Source: Lysobacter sp. yr284
GTDB taxonomy: Bacteria > Pseudomonadota > Gammaproteobacteria > Xanthomonadales > Xanthomonadaceae
Direction: 5' to 3'
Length of the DNA: 63,229 bases
NCBI RefSeq assembly: GCF_900107375.1
Contig: NZ_FNPT01000002.1
Location: 119,106-182,334, forward strand
Every line of letters starts with the position of its first letter. Positions within the stretch are counted from its first letter, which is position 1. Below, piece by piece: positions 33,591-47,332 of the stretch. A program made the translations under genes and the position numbers. Below the pieces are notes generated by a model. The model was not told where the DNA came from. It saw only the letters and a list, made by a program, of their open reading frames with translations, and ran no database searches.

Positions 33591-34331
33591 CTACAGCGCG
33601 ATCAACCCCAGCGCGACCGCGCGCGCGCAGGCCGCGCGCCGGCCCTTGACCCCGAGCTTGCGCGCCACCTGCTGCAGGTGGAAGTTCACCGTGCGCTCGC
33701 TGATCTGCAGGATCATCGAGATCTCCCACGAGGTCTTGCCCACCGCCGACCAGCGCAGCACCTCGCATTCGCGTTCGCTGAGCTTGGGCGCGTGGCGCGG
33801 CCGGCGCAGCAGCCGGTCCATCGCCGCGTGCATGCAGCTGACGAAATACACCGCCTGGCCCAGGGTCGGCACCAGTTCGCGCGGATCGGCCAGGGCGTTG
33901 ACGGTGAAGGTGGTGAACGACCACTGCGTGCCCGGCGACCAGCTCGGCACGGTGATGCCGCCGTGCAGGCCGAATTCGCCGGCCGCCATCAGGGTGCGGC
34001 GGCCGATCTGGTACAGCTGCGGGCGCGGCTCCCAAGTGGTGCGGCCGCGCGAATTCCAGGCCACCGCCGGCAACCCCTCGCGCGAGAGGGTGATGCGCGG
34101 GTCGCTGCGCTCGGCGTCGGACGCGGCCAGCGCCGGGTAGGTCTTCGACCAGTCGCTGTCGAAGTCCTCGAAGAACACGAAATCCGAACCGCCCGGCAGC
34201 GGTTCGCGCAGCTTGGTCGCGTAGCCGTGGTTGTGGAAGCCGACCGCGCGGGAAAAGGCCGAGGTCACTGACTTGACCTCGTCCAGCGTCGCGGCGCGCA
34301 GCACTCGATCGATATGGTCCCAATACTCCAT
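33591..34331 (-). CDS. LuxR-family solo with intact acyl-homoserine-lactone pocket
   Basis: 246 residues from ATG 34331; a GTG 15 bases earlier is possible. The N-terminal autoinducer-binding domain keeps every hallmark residue: Trp61 and Tyr65 in DWSKTY, Asp77-Pro78 in SDPRI, Trp92 in AVAWNS and Gly121 in EFGLHGG. The C-terminal GerE helix-turn-helix reads [25 protein letters not shown] and [18 protein letters not shown]. No luxI synthase is present in the window, so it is a solo, perhaps sensing signals from other bacteria. Lysobacter enzymogenes has a LuxR solo, LesR, that affects antibiotic production; whether this is LesR cannot be told here. Confidence 0.9.
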
Positions 34332-34582
34332 GCCGTGCCTGATCACCTGCGTTCCGGCGGGTTCGAGCCATCATACATACGCACGCCGCGTGCCGCCGAT
34401 CTCAGATCGCAACCGGGCCGCAGCGCACCTTCCGGCTGCGCATGGCGAGCCGCCGCGCCGCCCCGAAACGCGCGCCAGGCAAGGCCGCAGGCCGTTTGTA
34501 ACGCGGCCGCGCGGGAAGCCCGCGGCCCTATCGGGTATCATCCCGGGCTCCCCCACGTCTGTCTTTCCGTCAGCGGAGTCTC

Positions 34583-35377
34583 ATGCGCGTATTGGTCAGC
34601 AACGACGACGGCGTCGACGCGCCCGGCATCCGCATCCTCGCCCAGGGGCTGCGCGAGGCCGGACACGAAGTGCTGGTGGTCGCGCCCGACCGCGACCGCT
34701 CCGGCGCGAGCAATTCGCTGACCCTGGACATGCCGGTGCGGGTCGCCCGCCTGGACGAGACGACGTGGCGGGTCTACGGCACCCCGACCGACTGCGTGCA
34801 CGTGGCCCTGGCCGGCATGCTCGAGCTGGAGCCCGATATCGTCGTCTCCGGCATCAACACCACCGCCAACATGGGCGACGACGTGATCTATTCGGGCACC
34901 GTCGCCGCGGCGATGGAAGGCCGCTTCCTCGGCCTGCCGGCGGTGGCGATGTCGCTGGCCGCGGCCGACCACGACGGCCGCCATTACGAAACCGCGGCGC
35001 GCGCGGCGGTGGAGATCATCGCCCGCCTGCGCACCGATCCGCTGCCGGCCGACACCATCCTCAACGTCAACGTGCCCGACCTGGCGTGGGACGAGATCGC
35101 CGGCTTCGAGGTCACCCGCCTGGGCAACCGCCACCGCGCCGAGGCCTGCATCCCGCAGCGCGACCCGCGCGGGCGCCAGTGGTGGTGGATCGGCCCGGCC
35201 GGCGCCGAGGCCGACGCCGGCGCCGGCACCGATTTCCACGCTGTGCGCACCGGCAACATCTCGATCACCCCGATCCACGTCGACCTGACCCGCTATCAGG
35301 CGCTGGACCAGGTCGCCAGCTGGGTCGGCGGCCTGGCCGCGTCGCTGGACGCGCCCACGCCGGAGCGCGCGGCATGA
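34583..35377 (+). CDS. surE: 5'/3'-nucleotidase SurE
   Basis: 264 residues. [16 protein letters not shown] (metal Asp-Asp), [30 protein letters not shown] and [26 protein letters not shown] are complete SurE motifs. It dephosphorylates nucleoside monophosphates and short polyphosphates and is a stationary-phase survival factor. It heads the conserved surE-pcm-yqaA-nlpD operon. An inverted repeat GGCCGCGCGGG/CCCGCGGCC lies in the 5' region near 34504-34527. Confidence 0.96.
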
Positions 35378-36054
35378 TCCAGCGCATGCGCCTGCAGCCG
35401 GAGGCCATCGGCAGCGGCCTGACCTCGCAGCGCGTGCGCGACCGCCTGGTCGAGCGCCTGCGCGAGGCCGGCATCCGCGACGAGCGCGTGCTCAACGCGA
35501 TCCGCACCGTGCCGCGCCACCTGTTCGTCGACGAAGCGCTGGCGATGCGCGCCTACGAGGACACCGCGCTGCCGATCGGCCATAACCAGACCATCTCCCA
35601 GCCGTGGGTGGTGGCGCGCATGACCGAGGCGCTGTTCGAGGACGGCCCGCCGGCCAAGGTGCTGGAGATCGGCACCGGCTCGGGCTACCAGGCCGCGATC
35701 CTGGCCGCGCTGGGGCTGGAAGTGCACACCGTCGAGCGCATCGGCGAACTGCTGCGCACCGCGCGCAAGCGCTTCCGCCAGCTCGGCCTGAATGTGCGCA
35801 GCAAGCACGACGACGGCCGCATCGGCTGGCCGGAGAACGGCCCGTTCGACGCGATCATCGTCACCGCCGCGGCGCCGGCGCTGGTCGATGCGCTGACCGA
35901 GCAGCTCGCGCCCGGCGGCACCCTGGTCGCGCCGGTCGGCGCCGCCTCGTCGCAGTCGTTGCTCAAGCTGCGCAAGGACGCGGACGGCAACGTCGCCCAA
36001 ACCACGCTCGCGCCGGTGGTGTTCGTGCCGCTGCTGTCGGGCATGATCGACTGA
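35374..36054 (+). CDS. pcm: Protein-L-isoaspartate O-methyltransferase
   Basis: 226 residues; ATG overlaps the surE stop (ATGA). [35 protein letters not shown], the SAM loop [30 protein letters not shown] and [12 protein letters not shown] are PCMT signatures. It methylates isoaspartyl residues so they can revert to aspartate, repairing aged proteins. Coupling with surE is the classical arrangement. Confidence 0.96.
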
Positions 36055-43888: not shown

Positions 43889-44788
43889 ATGTTCGACCTG
43901 TCCCCGACCCTGGACTGCAACGGCCGTGTCCTCAAGCTCGATCGCCCGCGGGTGATGGGCATCGTCAACGTCACTCCCGATTCGTTTTCCGACGGCGGCG
44001 CCCACGACACGCTCGAAGCCGCGGTCGCGCACGGCCTGCAACTGGCCGCGCAGGGCGCCGACCTGCTCGACATCGGCGGCGAGTCCACTCGGCCCGGCGC
44101 GGCCGAGGTGCCGGTGGAGGAGGAGCTGCGGCGCACGATCCCGGTGATCGAGCGCCTCGCCCGCGAGACCGCGCTGCCGATCAGCATCGATACCTCCAAG
44201 CCCGAGGTGATGCGCGCCGCGGTCGCCGCCGGCGCCGGCCTGATCAACGATGTCTACGGCCTGCGCCGCGAAGGCGCGCTCGACGCCGCCGCCGCGCTCG
44301 GCGTGCCGGTGGTGCTGATGCACATGCAGGGCGAGCCGCGCTCGATGCAGCACGAGCCGCACTACGAGGACGTGGTGGCCGAAGTGCACCGGTTCCTGGC
44401 CGAACGCATCTTCGCCGCCGAGATGGCCGGCATCGCCAAGAAGCGCATCGTGGTCGATCCGGGCTTCGGCTTCGGCAAGACCCTGCAGCACAACCTGACC
44501 CTGCTGGCCCAGCTGGAACGCTTCGGCGAACTCGGCGTGCCGGTGCTGGCGGGGCTGTCGCGCAAGCGCAGCATCGGCGAGCTGACCGGCCGCGAGGACG
44601 CGCGCGAGCGCGTGCACGGCTCGGTCGCCGCGCACCTGATCGCGGCCCAGCGCGGCGCGCGCCTGCTGCGCGCGCACGACGTGGCCGCGACCGTGGACGC
44701 GCTGAAGGTCTGGGAAGCGGTGGCCGCGCAGGTCCAGCCGCGCCGCGCGGCGGCGCCGGCGATGCCGAAGTGGCCCGACGAGGATTGA
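43889..44788 (+). CDS. folP: Dihydropteroate synthase
   Basis: 299 residues. PRVMGIVNVTPDSFSDGG, LLDIGGESTRPGA, PISIDTSKPEVMRAAVAAGAGLINDVYG, VLMHMQGEP, DPGFGFGKT, GLSRKRSIGEL and GSVAAHLIAA form the DHPS signature set. It joins p-aminobenzoate with hydroxymethyl-dihydropterin diphosphate for folate and is the sulfonamide target. In many gammaproteobacteria glmM follows folP; here a repeat array follows. Confidence 0.96.
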   Translation: MFDLSPTLDCNGRVLKLDRPRVMGIVNVTPDSFSDGGAHDTLEAAVAHGLQLAAQGADLLDIGGESTRPGAAEVPVEEELRRTIPVIERLARETALPISIDTSKPEVMRAAVAAGAGLINDVYGLRREGALDAAAALGVPVVLMHMQGEPRSMQHEPHYEDVVAEVHRFLAERIFAAEMAGIAKKRIVVDPGFGFGKTLQHNLTLLAQLERFGELGVPVLAGLSRKRSIGELTGREDARERVHGSVAAHLIAAQRGARLLRAHDVAATVDALKVWEAVAAQVQPRRAAAPAMPKWPDED

Positions 44789-44835
44789 CGGGCGAGGTGC
44801 GCGCGCGGGCGCGCGATTGTTTTCTCGCCGATCCC

Positions 44836-44930
44836 GCCGAGACCTTGGCGCTGCAGGCGTGGAACCCGGTTCCCGGATGCTTGTGCGCATGCGTGTCCAT
44901 CGCCTTGTCGATAGCGCAGCGGGCGCAGGC
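44836..44930. repeat. Decayed copy preceding the 206-bp repeat array
   Basis: The stretch from GCCGAGACCTTGGCGCTGC to the word CTTGTCGATAGCG aligns by eye, with many substitutions, to the first half of the 206-bp units (GCCGAAGCCTTGTCGCATAA...GTGTGGATAGCG). The DnaA-box-like pair has been lost here. It marks an older member of the array. Confidence 0.5.
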
Positions 44931-45000
44931 GTGTCGTGGCGCGGCGTGGCGCTGCGAGCCGATGCGGCGCGCGGCCGCCGGTGGGCGCTGCGATGGGCTG

Positions 45001-45720
45001 GACAAAAAACAGCCAAACTCACCGAAGCCTTGTCGCATAAGGCGTGAAACCCGATTCCACGGCATGTGTCCCAATGCTTGTCCACAGGCTGTGTGGATAG
45101 CGGCGGGCCCGCGCGGCGAGGCGCTTGCAGCGAAACGCGAAAAAAGCAAGGCCGCAGCGTTGGAATGCGTCGTCGGCGCGCGCGCATCGGGCATGAATCG
45201 GTGTTGGACAAAAAATGATCAAACTCGCCGAAGCCTTGTCCCGTAAGGCGTGAAACCCGATTCCACGGCGTGTGTCCCAATGCTTGTCCACAGGCTGTGT
45301 GGATAGCGGCGGGCCCGCGCGGCGAGGCGCTTGCAGCGAAACGCGAAAAAAGCAAGGCCGCAGCGTCGGATTTAGTCGTCGGCGCGCGTGTGGCGGGCCT
45401 GAATCGGCGTTGGACAAAAAATGATCAAACTCGCCGAGGCCTTGTCGCATAAGGCGTGAAACCCGATTCCACTGCGTGTGTCCCAATGCTTGTCCACAGG
45501 CTGTGTGGACAGCGGCGAGCCCGCGCGGCGAGGCGCTTGCAGCGAAACGCGAAAAAAGCAAGGCCGCAGCATCGGAATCCGTCGTCGGCGCGTGCGCTTC
45601 GGGCTTGAATCGGTGTTGGACAAAAAATGATCAAACTCGCCGAAGCCTTGTCCCGTAAGGCGTGAAACCCGATTCCACTGCGTGTGTCCCAATGCTTGTC
45701 CACAGGCTGTGTGGATAGCG
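45001..45720. repeat. Array of 206-bp tandem repeats, 3.5 copies, each with an inverted DnaA-box-like pair
   Basis: Units begin with GACAAAAAA at 45001, 45207, 45413 and 45619; the fourth stops matching at about 45720. The period is exactly 206 bp each time, and units 2 and 3 differ at about 17 positions, mostly in the last 50 bp. Because 206 is not a multiple of three and stops occur in each frame, the array is not a repeated protein. Each unit contains TTGTCCACA, spacer GGCTG, TGTGGATAG (TGTGGACAG in unit 3): 45078-45100, 45284-45306, 45490-45512 and 45696-45718. TTGTCCACA is one base from the enteric DnaA box TTATCCACA and equals the preferred box of high-GC actinobacteria. The remaining sequence 45721-46060 has no gene or repeat. 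Confidence 0.85.
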
Positions 45721-46059
45721 ATGGCGCGGCCGCTCGGCGTGGCGCGAGCCGGAGCCGGTGCGCGGCGCGAACGCACGCAGGCGCGAAGCGGGCAGGGGAC
45801 GCTGGCCCGCCGCTGCCTGGTGCGCTGCAGCACGCGGCGCAGGCCGCAGGGGCGTCGAGCGCATCGTCTGCCGGACGCCCGGCGACTGTGCGGCCGGGGC
45901 CGGCGAGCGCGGCGATCGCGCCGAAGTCCCGTCTGCGCAGGCGCAAACATCGATCCGCACGCCAGCGTCCGCGCGCCTGTCGCCGCCGCCGCGCAAGCCC
46001 CGGTCGCCGATGCCGATGCCTGCGGCAAAGTCAAGGAAATTCACTGGCGAATTTCTCGC

Positions 46060-46160
46060 CAAACCTCTTGCAATGCTTATGCCGCAAGGCTTCGCGGACG
46101 CAATCGAAAAACTGTCCGCAGGCTTGTCCACAGGGGATGTGGACAACTGCAACGGGCTGG
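46060..46160. repeat. Diverged solitary member of the repeat family upstream of miaA
   Basis: CAAACCTCTTGCAATGCTTA and the following GCCGCAAGGC resemble CAAACTCGCCGAAGCCTTGTCGCATAAGGC of the array units, and are followed after a similar distance by the inverted TTGTCCACA pair at 46124-46146. It is clearly less GC-rich than its surroundings. An in-frame translation exists but matches nothing known. Confidence 0.5.
46124..46146. promoter_or_regulatory. Perfect inverted pair of TTGTCCACA 9-mers
   Basis: TTGTCCACA (46124-46132), spacer GGGGA, TGTGGACAA (46138-46146): both 9-mers identical on opposite strands with the same 5-nt spacing seen in the four array units. It lies about 200 bp upstream of miaA. 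It may be a DnaA-binding site or the stem of a hairpin RNA. Confidence 0.6.
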
Positions 46161-46342
46161 TCAAGAAATGGGCAAATTCCTGTAAAGCCGGGCCCGGCGC
46201 GGGCCGCCGGGCCGCCGCCGAACGCCCGCCGCAGCGCGGTTGCGCAGCGGCCGGGGCCTGTTCGCGGCGGCGGCGGGCCGGCTTCCGCAGGCCGCGCGCC
46301 TGTGCGAGGCTGCGCGTCGCCCACCGCCGTACCCGCCCGCGC

Positions 46343-47332
46343 ATGACCGCCTCCCTCGACCCGCGCCCGCTCGCCATCGCCCTGATGGGCCCGACCGCCT
46401 CGGGCAAGACCGCGCTCGCGCTGGATTGGGCGCAGCGCCTGGATGCGGAGATCGTCAGCGTCGACTCGGCCCTGGTCTACCGCGGCCTGGACATCGGCGC
46501 GGCCAAGCCGAGCGCAGCCGAGCGCGCGGCGGTGCCGCACCACCTGATCGACGTGCGCGAGCCGTGGCAGGCCTATTCGGCGGCCGAGTTCGCCAGCGAT
46601 GCGCGCGCGGCGATGGCGCAGATCGCCGCGCGCGGGCGCCTGCCGATCCTGGCCGGCGGCACCGGGCTGTACTTCCACGCCCTGCTGCACGGCCTGTCGG
46701 ACATGCCCGAGGCCGACCCGGCCACCCGCGCCGCGCTGACCGCCGAGGCCGCGCAGCGCGGCTGGGCGGCGCTGCACGCCGAGCTGGCCGCGCTCGACCC
46801 GGAGGCGGCCGCGCGCATCCACGCCACCGACGCCCAGCGCATCCAGCGCGCGCTCGAGGTCTGGCGCCTGTCCGGCCGCACCATCAGCGACTGGCGCCGG
46901 GCCTCGGCGGCGCGCCCGCGGCTGCCGTTCCGGGTGCTCAAGCTGGTGCTGGCGCCGGCCGAGCGCGCGGTGCTGCACGCGCGGATCGAACGCCGCTTCG
47001 AGCAGATGCTGGCCGACGGCTTCCTCGACGAGGTCCGCGCGCTGCGCGCGCTGCCGGGGCTGGCTGCGCATCCCAGCCCGCTGGAGCTGCCGGCGATCCG
47101 CGCGGTCGGCTACCGCCAGGCCTGGGAACACCTCGACGGCGCGTTCGACGCGGCGCAGCTGCGCGACCGCGGCGTGTTCGCCACCCGCCAGCTGGCCAAG
47201 CGCCAGCTGACCTGGCTACGCGGCGAACTTGACGCGCGCTGGTTCGATCCTTTGCGCGACGCGGCCGAACTGGAGCGCGCGGTCGGGCTGTTCGCCGGCG
47301 CCCGCCTGCGCGCGCGCGCCCAGGGCGCTTAG
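46343..47332 (+). CDS. miaA: tRNA dimethylallyltransferase
   Basis: 329 residues. [19 protein letters not shown] (P-loop), [60 protein letters not shown] and [17 protein letters not shown] are the IPT signature. It adds the dimethylallyl group to A37 of tRNAs reading UNN codons, using isoprenoid made via IspD/IspF. The ATG at 46343 was chosen; the open frame continues upstream into repeat-derived sequence without family match. hfq follows, the classical miaA-hfq order. Confidence 0.96.

Follow-up and report, generated by a model that had tools for sequence, protein, structure and literature searches.

The window, a 63,229-nucleotide stretch of Lysobacter DNA that forms part of contig C31 of a 6.25-Mb genome (G000), carries a tandem repeat array in the gap between folP and miaA. 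Both genes lie on the plus strand and score above their NCBIfam cut-offs: the upstream neighbour, folP (43889..44788), matches TIGR01496 with 330 bits against a cut-off of 162.6, and the downstream neighbour, miaA (46343..47332), matches TIGR00174 with 306 bits against 148.65. On the plus strand at 44999..45720, TRF reports a period of 206 bp, 3.5 copies and 92% matches; the first copy is 93–94% identical to the others in the array over 300 nt. These values agree with the initial annotation, which had placed three full units and one partial unit of 206 bp between the two genes and whose description of the locus is correct in nearly all respects. It is half right about the decayed copies said to flank the array. 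On the left, local alignment identifies such a copy at about 44835..44942 (plus strand), whose score of 59 exceeds that of all 200 shuffles (at most 31). The right side offers no more than a lone core; its score of 32 is below the shuffle maximum of 33, and a decayed copy there was rejected. Protein coding was likewise set aside as unlikely: only mechanical ORFs cross the array, and genomes differ in its period and copy number.

Each unit contains TTGTCCACA, a 5-nt spacer and an inverted partner, as had been described, with the pairs starting at 45078, 45284, 45490 and 45696. The right arms within the array read TGTGGATAG or TGTGGACAG, so the four array pairs are imperfect palindromes, and the predicted fifth, perfect pair of the same geometry does lie alone at 46124–46146. 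In every core a third box, weaker and co-oriented with TTGTCCACA, is found 3 bp 5′ of it (12 bases 5′ of its start). Every core in this genome therefore has the layout 9-3-9-5-9, that is, box III, 3 bp, box II, 5 bp and an inverted box I, which we call a DARS-like core by comparison with the DnaA-reactivating sequences of Escherichia coli considered below. All five in the gap are on the plus strand: core 1 at 45066..45100 (box III GTGTCCCAA, box II TTGTCCACA, inverted box I TGTGGATAG), core 2 at 45272..45306, core 3 at 45478..45512 (box I TGTGGACAG), core 4 at 45684..45718, in the last, partial unit, and the lone core 5 at 46112..46146 (CTGTCCGCA-GGC-TTGTCCACA-GGGGA-TGTGGACAA). An A/T-tract bounded by TGG- and CAA-like ends, read from the sequence and the array profile, lies 67 bp 5′ of box III at 45205..45224 (plus strand) and occupies the same place in the other units, starting at 44999, 45411 and 45617; by eye, the lone core has an element of the same kind 67 bp 5′ of its box III (46045..46064, plus strand). 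Such a tract, 67–68 bp 5′ of box III, is by eye common to the array cores and to the priA and kinase loci described below.

The boxes resemble the DnaA box of the species. Box II is one base from TTATCCACA and box I is close to it, and two TTATCCACA boxes in opposite orientation lie in the gap just 3′ of dnaA (contig C13), before a gene that is presumably dnaN. Box III of our cores is weaker, with two or three mismatches to TTGTCCACA by eye, and the box III of E. coli DARS1 and DARS2 is likewise weaker. The 9-mer TTRTCCACA occurs 48 times in the genome and its reversed control 27 times, so single boxes taken alone are weak evidence; 30 of the 48 are on the dnaA contig, and the cores account for 14 of the remaining 18. 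The initial annotation had read the pairs as DnaA boxes of a replication-control locus, and the TTATCCACA boxes near dnaA, together with the layout of the array, which is that of known E. coli DnaA sites, support this by sequence. The annotation had compared the box with that of high-GC actinobacteria; the host, Lysobacter, is a gammaproteobacterial genus. Its two more specific proposals, a parallel with datA and an amplified hairpin RNA gene, fared less well, as set out below.

The genome-wide search that had been proposed for such pairs gave 10 distinct sites for TTGTCCACA-N5-TGTGGA in 6.25 Mb and none for the reversed control pattern. Four sites are in each of two arrays, one is the lone pair and one lies in a kinase/response-regulator gap. 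With pairs of this geometry confined to these sites, the genome does not show the abundance of similar clusters that would have marked an ordinary dispersed repeat. Counting a TTATCCACA core on contig C23, the genome has at least 11 cores in four places, a lower bound because the search misses cores with an altered box II. The second array consists of four cores in reverse orientation on the same contig, 60 kb off (L010 4140-4740). It is flanked by a HemJ-like gene on one side and, on the other, by an alkaline-phosphatase-like gene with a small ORF (both family matches below curated cut-offs). The core on contig C32 is located between hybrid-kinase-like and response-regulator-like genes (L011 4679-4701) and has a single one-mismatch IHF match nearby.

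The folP-miaA array is a conserved feature. It was found in all 20 Lysobacter genomes and in all nine sampled genomes of a second genus of the family (g38), and the comparison of copy number called for in the initial annotation showed three to 10 strong cores per gap across both genera, with variable periods and never fewer than three in any of the 29 genomes. A relaxed scan gave 167 cores over 32 genomes. For profiles we used the 127 units, from 31 of the 32 genomes, in which box II is exactly TTGTCCACA and is thus fixed by choice; cores with TTGCCCACA as box II, mostly from G003, G004 and G011, fall outside this set. Among the 127 units, box III conforms to [CG]TGTCC[GC][CA]A with positions 2, 4, 5 and 6 invariant, and the spacer starts with G in 118. 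Between units of one genome, identity is 0.71–1.0 in box III and 0.78–1.0 in box I (1.0 in box II, by row choice), against 0.22–0.49, near background, in the downstream flank on the box I side and an intermediate 0.34–0.63 in the flank on the box III side. Across 27 genomes the cores are spaced 147 to 431 bp apart, and the 58 distinct spacings show no helical phasing (Rayleigh p 0.48–0.72), so the cores may act singly.

A weaker core with the same arrangement of boxes is found 114 bp past the last strong core, close to miaA, in all 24 genomes outside the clade of our strain, in both genera (115 bp in G011; for example TTGCCCCAG-CGG-TTCTCCACA-N5-TGTGGAAAG). It is absent from all five genomes of that clade (G000, G005, G006, G016 and G019), which keep the array. 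Beyond the two genera, we examined one genome from each of 30 others; in 27 of them the stretch 5′ of miaA, at most 1.5 kb long and often too short to include folP, shows no core. Among 80 named loci from a MiaA scan, six have three or more strong cores, including those of L. antibioticus and L. niastensis, but their cores are identical to those of genomes already counted, so that they add names rather than independent cases. Two of the remainder have one strong and one weak core, seven a single weaker candidate and 65 none; folP was not found in eight of the fetched stretches, two stretches end before miaA, and close relatives are possibly absent from the set. The Xanthomonas and Stenotrophomonas loci examined have no array, and wherever both genes were seen there they are 6–12 bp apart. 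Two cores 161 bp apart were observed in another genus (G052:C3:122131-122314; L083 1501-1684), with neither folP nor miaA in the 3-kb stretch, and are possibly an independent small array.

The array is intergenic and, like DARS, located between oriC and the terminus. By hand computation its distance from dnaA is 28–34% of genome length in nine of 10 genomes and 10% in G001; for G008 and G017, which have three contigs, the large contig was taken as circular. Conserved folP-miaA synteny alone could explain the constancy of this distance. E. coli oriC is at 84.6 min. With this position, and minutes taken from an excerpt of PMC5742627, DARS1 lies ∼33% of the genome from oriC.

According to the excerpted text of PMC5742627, DARS1 and DARS2 have in common three equally spaced DnaA boxes with box I reversed, and a prominent feature is that the DnaA molecules bound to boxes I and II touch head to head; an excerpt of PMC8682772 describes such sites in E. 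coli, where there are two loci, and in relatives as far as Vibrio and Shewanella. Our cores have three boxes at the DARS1 and DARS2 spacing, with box I opposite in orientation to boxes II and III. On the minus strand of the bioD-uvrB gap, DARS1 reads TAATACACA-TGG-TTATCCACA-GGAAT-AGTGGATAA, again 9-3-9-5-9 with an inverted box I and a spacer that starts with GG, and is identical to unit 2 at 22 of 35 core letters. As with the array cores, no IHF consensus was found near it when one mismatch was allowed in the 200 bp on either side. It differs from the array in being present in single copy and in having TTATCCACA where our box II is TTGTCCACA, and TAATACACA where our box III is GTGTCCCAA or CTGTCCGCA. 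DARS2, upstream of mutH and with one core overlapping the ygdT reading frame, resembles the array in core geometry and in having two cores, 316 bp apart, but our TTGTCCACA cores share only 17–20 of 35 letters with it. DARS2 has one-mismatch IHF matches at 97 bp, on the same strand as the sites of the priA cores described below, and at 172 bp, either of which may not be the published site, whereas no IHF consensus lies near the nine array cores of our genome. The 29 folP-miaA gaps (39,432 bp) contain only eight scattered one-mismatch matches, and the array therefore does not show the IHF arrangement of DARS2-type control. In copy number, single cores or a pair in E. coli compare with long arrays in Lysobacter.

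The inverted box at 5 bp distinguishes DARS from other E. coli DnaA sites. We tested 10 of the 13 distinct double-box sites in a ChIP table excerpted from PMC11317965, leaving out rne, rpoH and dnaA; the three DARS cores have the inverted box with one, two and three mismatches, and it is lacking in nrdA, oriC, mioC, polA, purH, nrdD and datA (five to eight mismatches). The case of datA bears on the parallel drawn in the initial annotation. Like the array, datA is a DnaA-box cluster outside oriC, and it has one co-oriented pair 3 bp apart, but its sequence at the place of the inverted box has five mismatches; the excerpt of PMC5742627 further describes an IHF site in datA and a role in promoting ATP hydrolysis, and our cores have no IHF match. 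Because datA has no inverted box at 5 bp and our cores no IHF match, we rejected a datA-like locus as the closest parallel; it is DARS1 and DARS2 that have the inverted box.

The core pattern is widespread in Gammaproteobacteria. In its loose form it was found in 145 of 281 genomes, with no matches in the controls; the other 136 have no core under the pattern used, and none of the 281 but our own has more than five matches. When convergent pairs of perfect boxes were sought with any spacer from 0 to 25, they were present in 71 of 140 genomes (one of 140 in the control), and by hand count the spacer is exactly 5 in 71 of the 75 pairs among the sites listed, the others being 17, 17, 22 and 24. 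Within the family of the host, a scan of one genome from each of 43 genera gave a match with no more than one mismatch in 42. A single core lies upstream of a priA homologue in 29 of 30 loci fetched from other genera (L256-L285), and our own genome has a priA-linked core as well, on contig C23 (L057 3738-3772; PriA by TIGR00595). At 29 priA-linked sites we counted 13 exact and 29 one-mismatch-or-better IHF consensus matches on the box III side against 3.2 in shuffles, and one against 1.1 on the box I side; in 24 loci the IHF-like site is 98–100 bp from box III, close to the 97 bp of one DARS2 match. The priA core thus mostly has an IHF-like site on the box III side, as in the DARS2 type, and is probably, to judge from these sequence features, the DARS2-type counterpart in the family. 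Its presence suggests that a DARS system exists in this family. A search of open-licence papers returned none that treats a DnaA-reactivating sequence together with Xanthomonas, and no title on DARS in this family.

On balance we favour the view that the array consists of tandem DnaA-reactivating cores of the IHF-less, DARS1 type, which would regenerate ATP-DnaA. This reading is supported by the geometry, the specificity of the inverted box, the selection on the boxes, the folP-miaA synteny, the wider occurrence of the pattern and the priA core; it suggests that the folP-miaA array is an amplified version of the timing control by which E. coli recharges DnaA. Several points count against it: box III of the 206-bp units, GTGTCCCAA, is three bases from TTGTCCACA and hence a weak box; the array cores have no IHF consensus; about half of the gammaproteobacterial genomes have no core under the pattern used; and long arrays are not a feature of E. 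coli. DARS sites prefer ADP-DnaA and promote the release of its ADP. By analogy with E. coli, two DnaA molecules would occupy boxes III and II, which point the same way, and a third would bind the inverted box I at a distance of five base pairs. The ADP-bound molecules at boxes II and I would make head-to-head contact and drop their ADP, and the apo-DnaA would leave and rebind ATP, so that the level of ATP-DnaA rises and the next initiation is promoted. Because the array lacks the IHF match of the DARS2 type, it should act like DARS1, in a basal and IHF-independent manner, with a dosage presumably set by the number of cores.

The pairs could also serve DnaA titration or the transcription of miaA-hfq. 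Titration is the main rival, although we think it rather unlikely: strong boxes, as in the B. subtilis clusters or on the titrating side of datA, would bind DnaA and delay initiation, its nucleotide state being unimportant. A gap with as many as 10 strong cores would suit such a role, and some titration would follow from binding anyway, so that it may act together with reactivation. B. subtilis, which we compared by description and not by sequence, similarly has repeated boxes outside oriC, in six clusters, and an excerpt of PMC13220808 describes initiation there as sensitive to free DnaA; unlike what we propose for the array, those clusters are linked to the level of free DnaA. Titration, however, needs boxes and not a fixed three-box geometry, and here both the 5-bp spacer and the 3-bp distance of box III are preserved, although the spacing between cores varies from 147 to 431 bp. 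The geometry is missing from datA, and the want of an IHF match at our cores argues against hydrolysis of the datA type. We consider it improbable that the array is a DnaA-controlled regulatory region for miaA-hfq-hflX, despite the weak core near miaA in the 24 genomes and the several E. coli DnaA sites that regulate genes (PMC11317965, in excerpt). The same genome has other cores next to priA, next to a HemJ-like gene and at a kinase pair, the five genomes of our clade keep the array without the weak core, and arrays reach up to about 2 kb from miaA. A promoter scan of 44700-46400 found none, which says little as only 0.1 was expected; a terminator scan gave three against 2.2 expected.

We think it very unlikely that a single ancestral core was merely duplicated in tandem by neutral processes, the extra copies bringing no functional gain. 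Our own units, ∼92% alike, are evidently recent, and copy number and period do differ among genomes, as neutral duplication would predict, but the cores persist beside box I-side flanks whose identity has fallen almost to background, and at least three strong cores are retained throughout the 29 genomes of both genera. An amplified hairpin RNA gene, or another transcribed element, seems least credible of all. The dyad of boxes II and I can pair as RNA, allowing G-U wobbles, in 110–127 of the 127 units at each pair. Upstream there is also a loose inverted repeat, but it is often broken; none of the nine pairs shows a compensatory change in the 127 units (a weak test, since box II was fixed by row choice), and box III is conserved to about the same degree as box I although it lies outside the hairpin. 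With no compensatory changes and no Rfam match, we rejected the hairpin RNA.

If the array does reactivate DnaA, the Lysobacter genomes provide a natural DARS dosage series of three to 11 array cores, and the standing question of how the timing of initiation is set by the dosage and position of DARS sites becomes directly testable. Each genome has three to 10 array cores in the one gap and up to 11 with a second array. In 18 of 20 Lysobacter genomes (G011 and G013 left out; counts for G003 and G004 include the TTGCCCACA cores), core number rises with genome size (Spearman 0.53, p 0.025, kinship ignored). We speculate that Lysobacter has made DnaA reactivation into an adjustable high-copy device, in which IHF-independent DARS cores replicated together in mid-replichore would set initiation mass in the manner of a dosage pulse or a rheostat, perhaps with scaling to a larger genome. 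With the III-3-II-5-I signature, DARS loci can also be sought easily across Gammaproteobacteria, and it is by this signature that a candidate DARS locus is placed upstream of priA in the family.

Three further observations concern sites outside the folP-miaA gap. An array beside a HemJ-like gene, with four or five cores, is present in five related genomes (L010, L059, L061, L062 and L073), and the lone core of the kinase/response-regulator gap, with spacer GGCTG, is kept in at least five (L011, L084, L085, L086 and L093). Contig C13 carries another array of DnaA boxes at 34142-35623 (L056 4142-5623), between genes that we take to be exbD and pdxJ; it is without the DARS layout and consists of seven TTATCCACA and one TTGTCCACA every ∼100 bp and four TTATCCACA every 55 bp.
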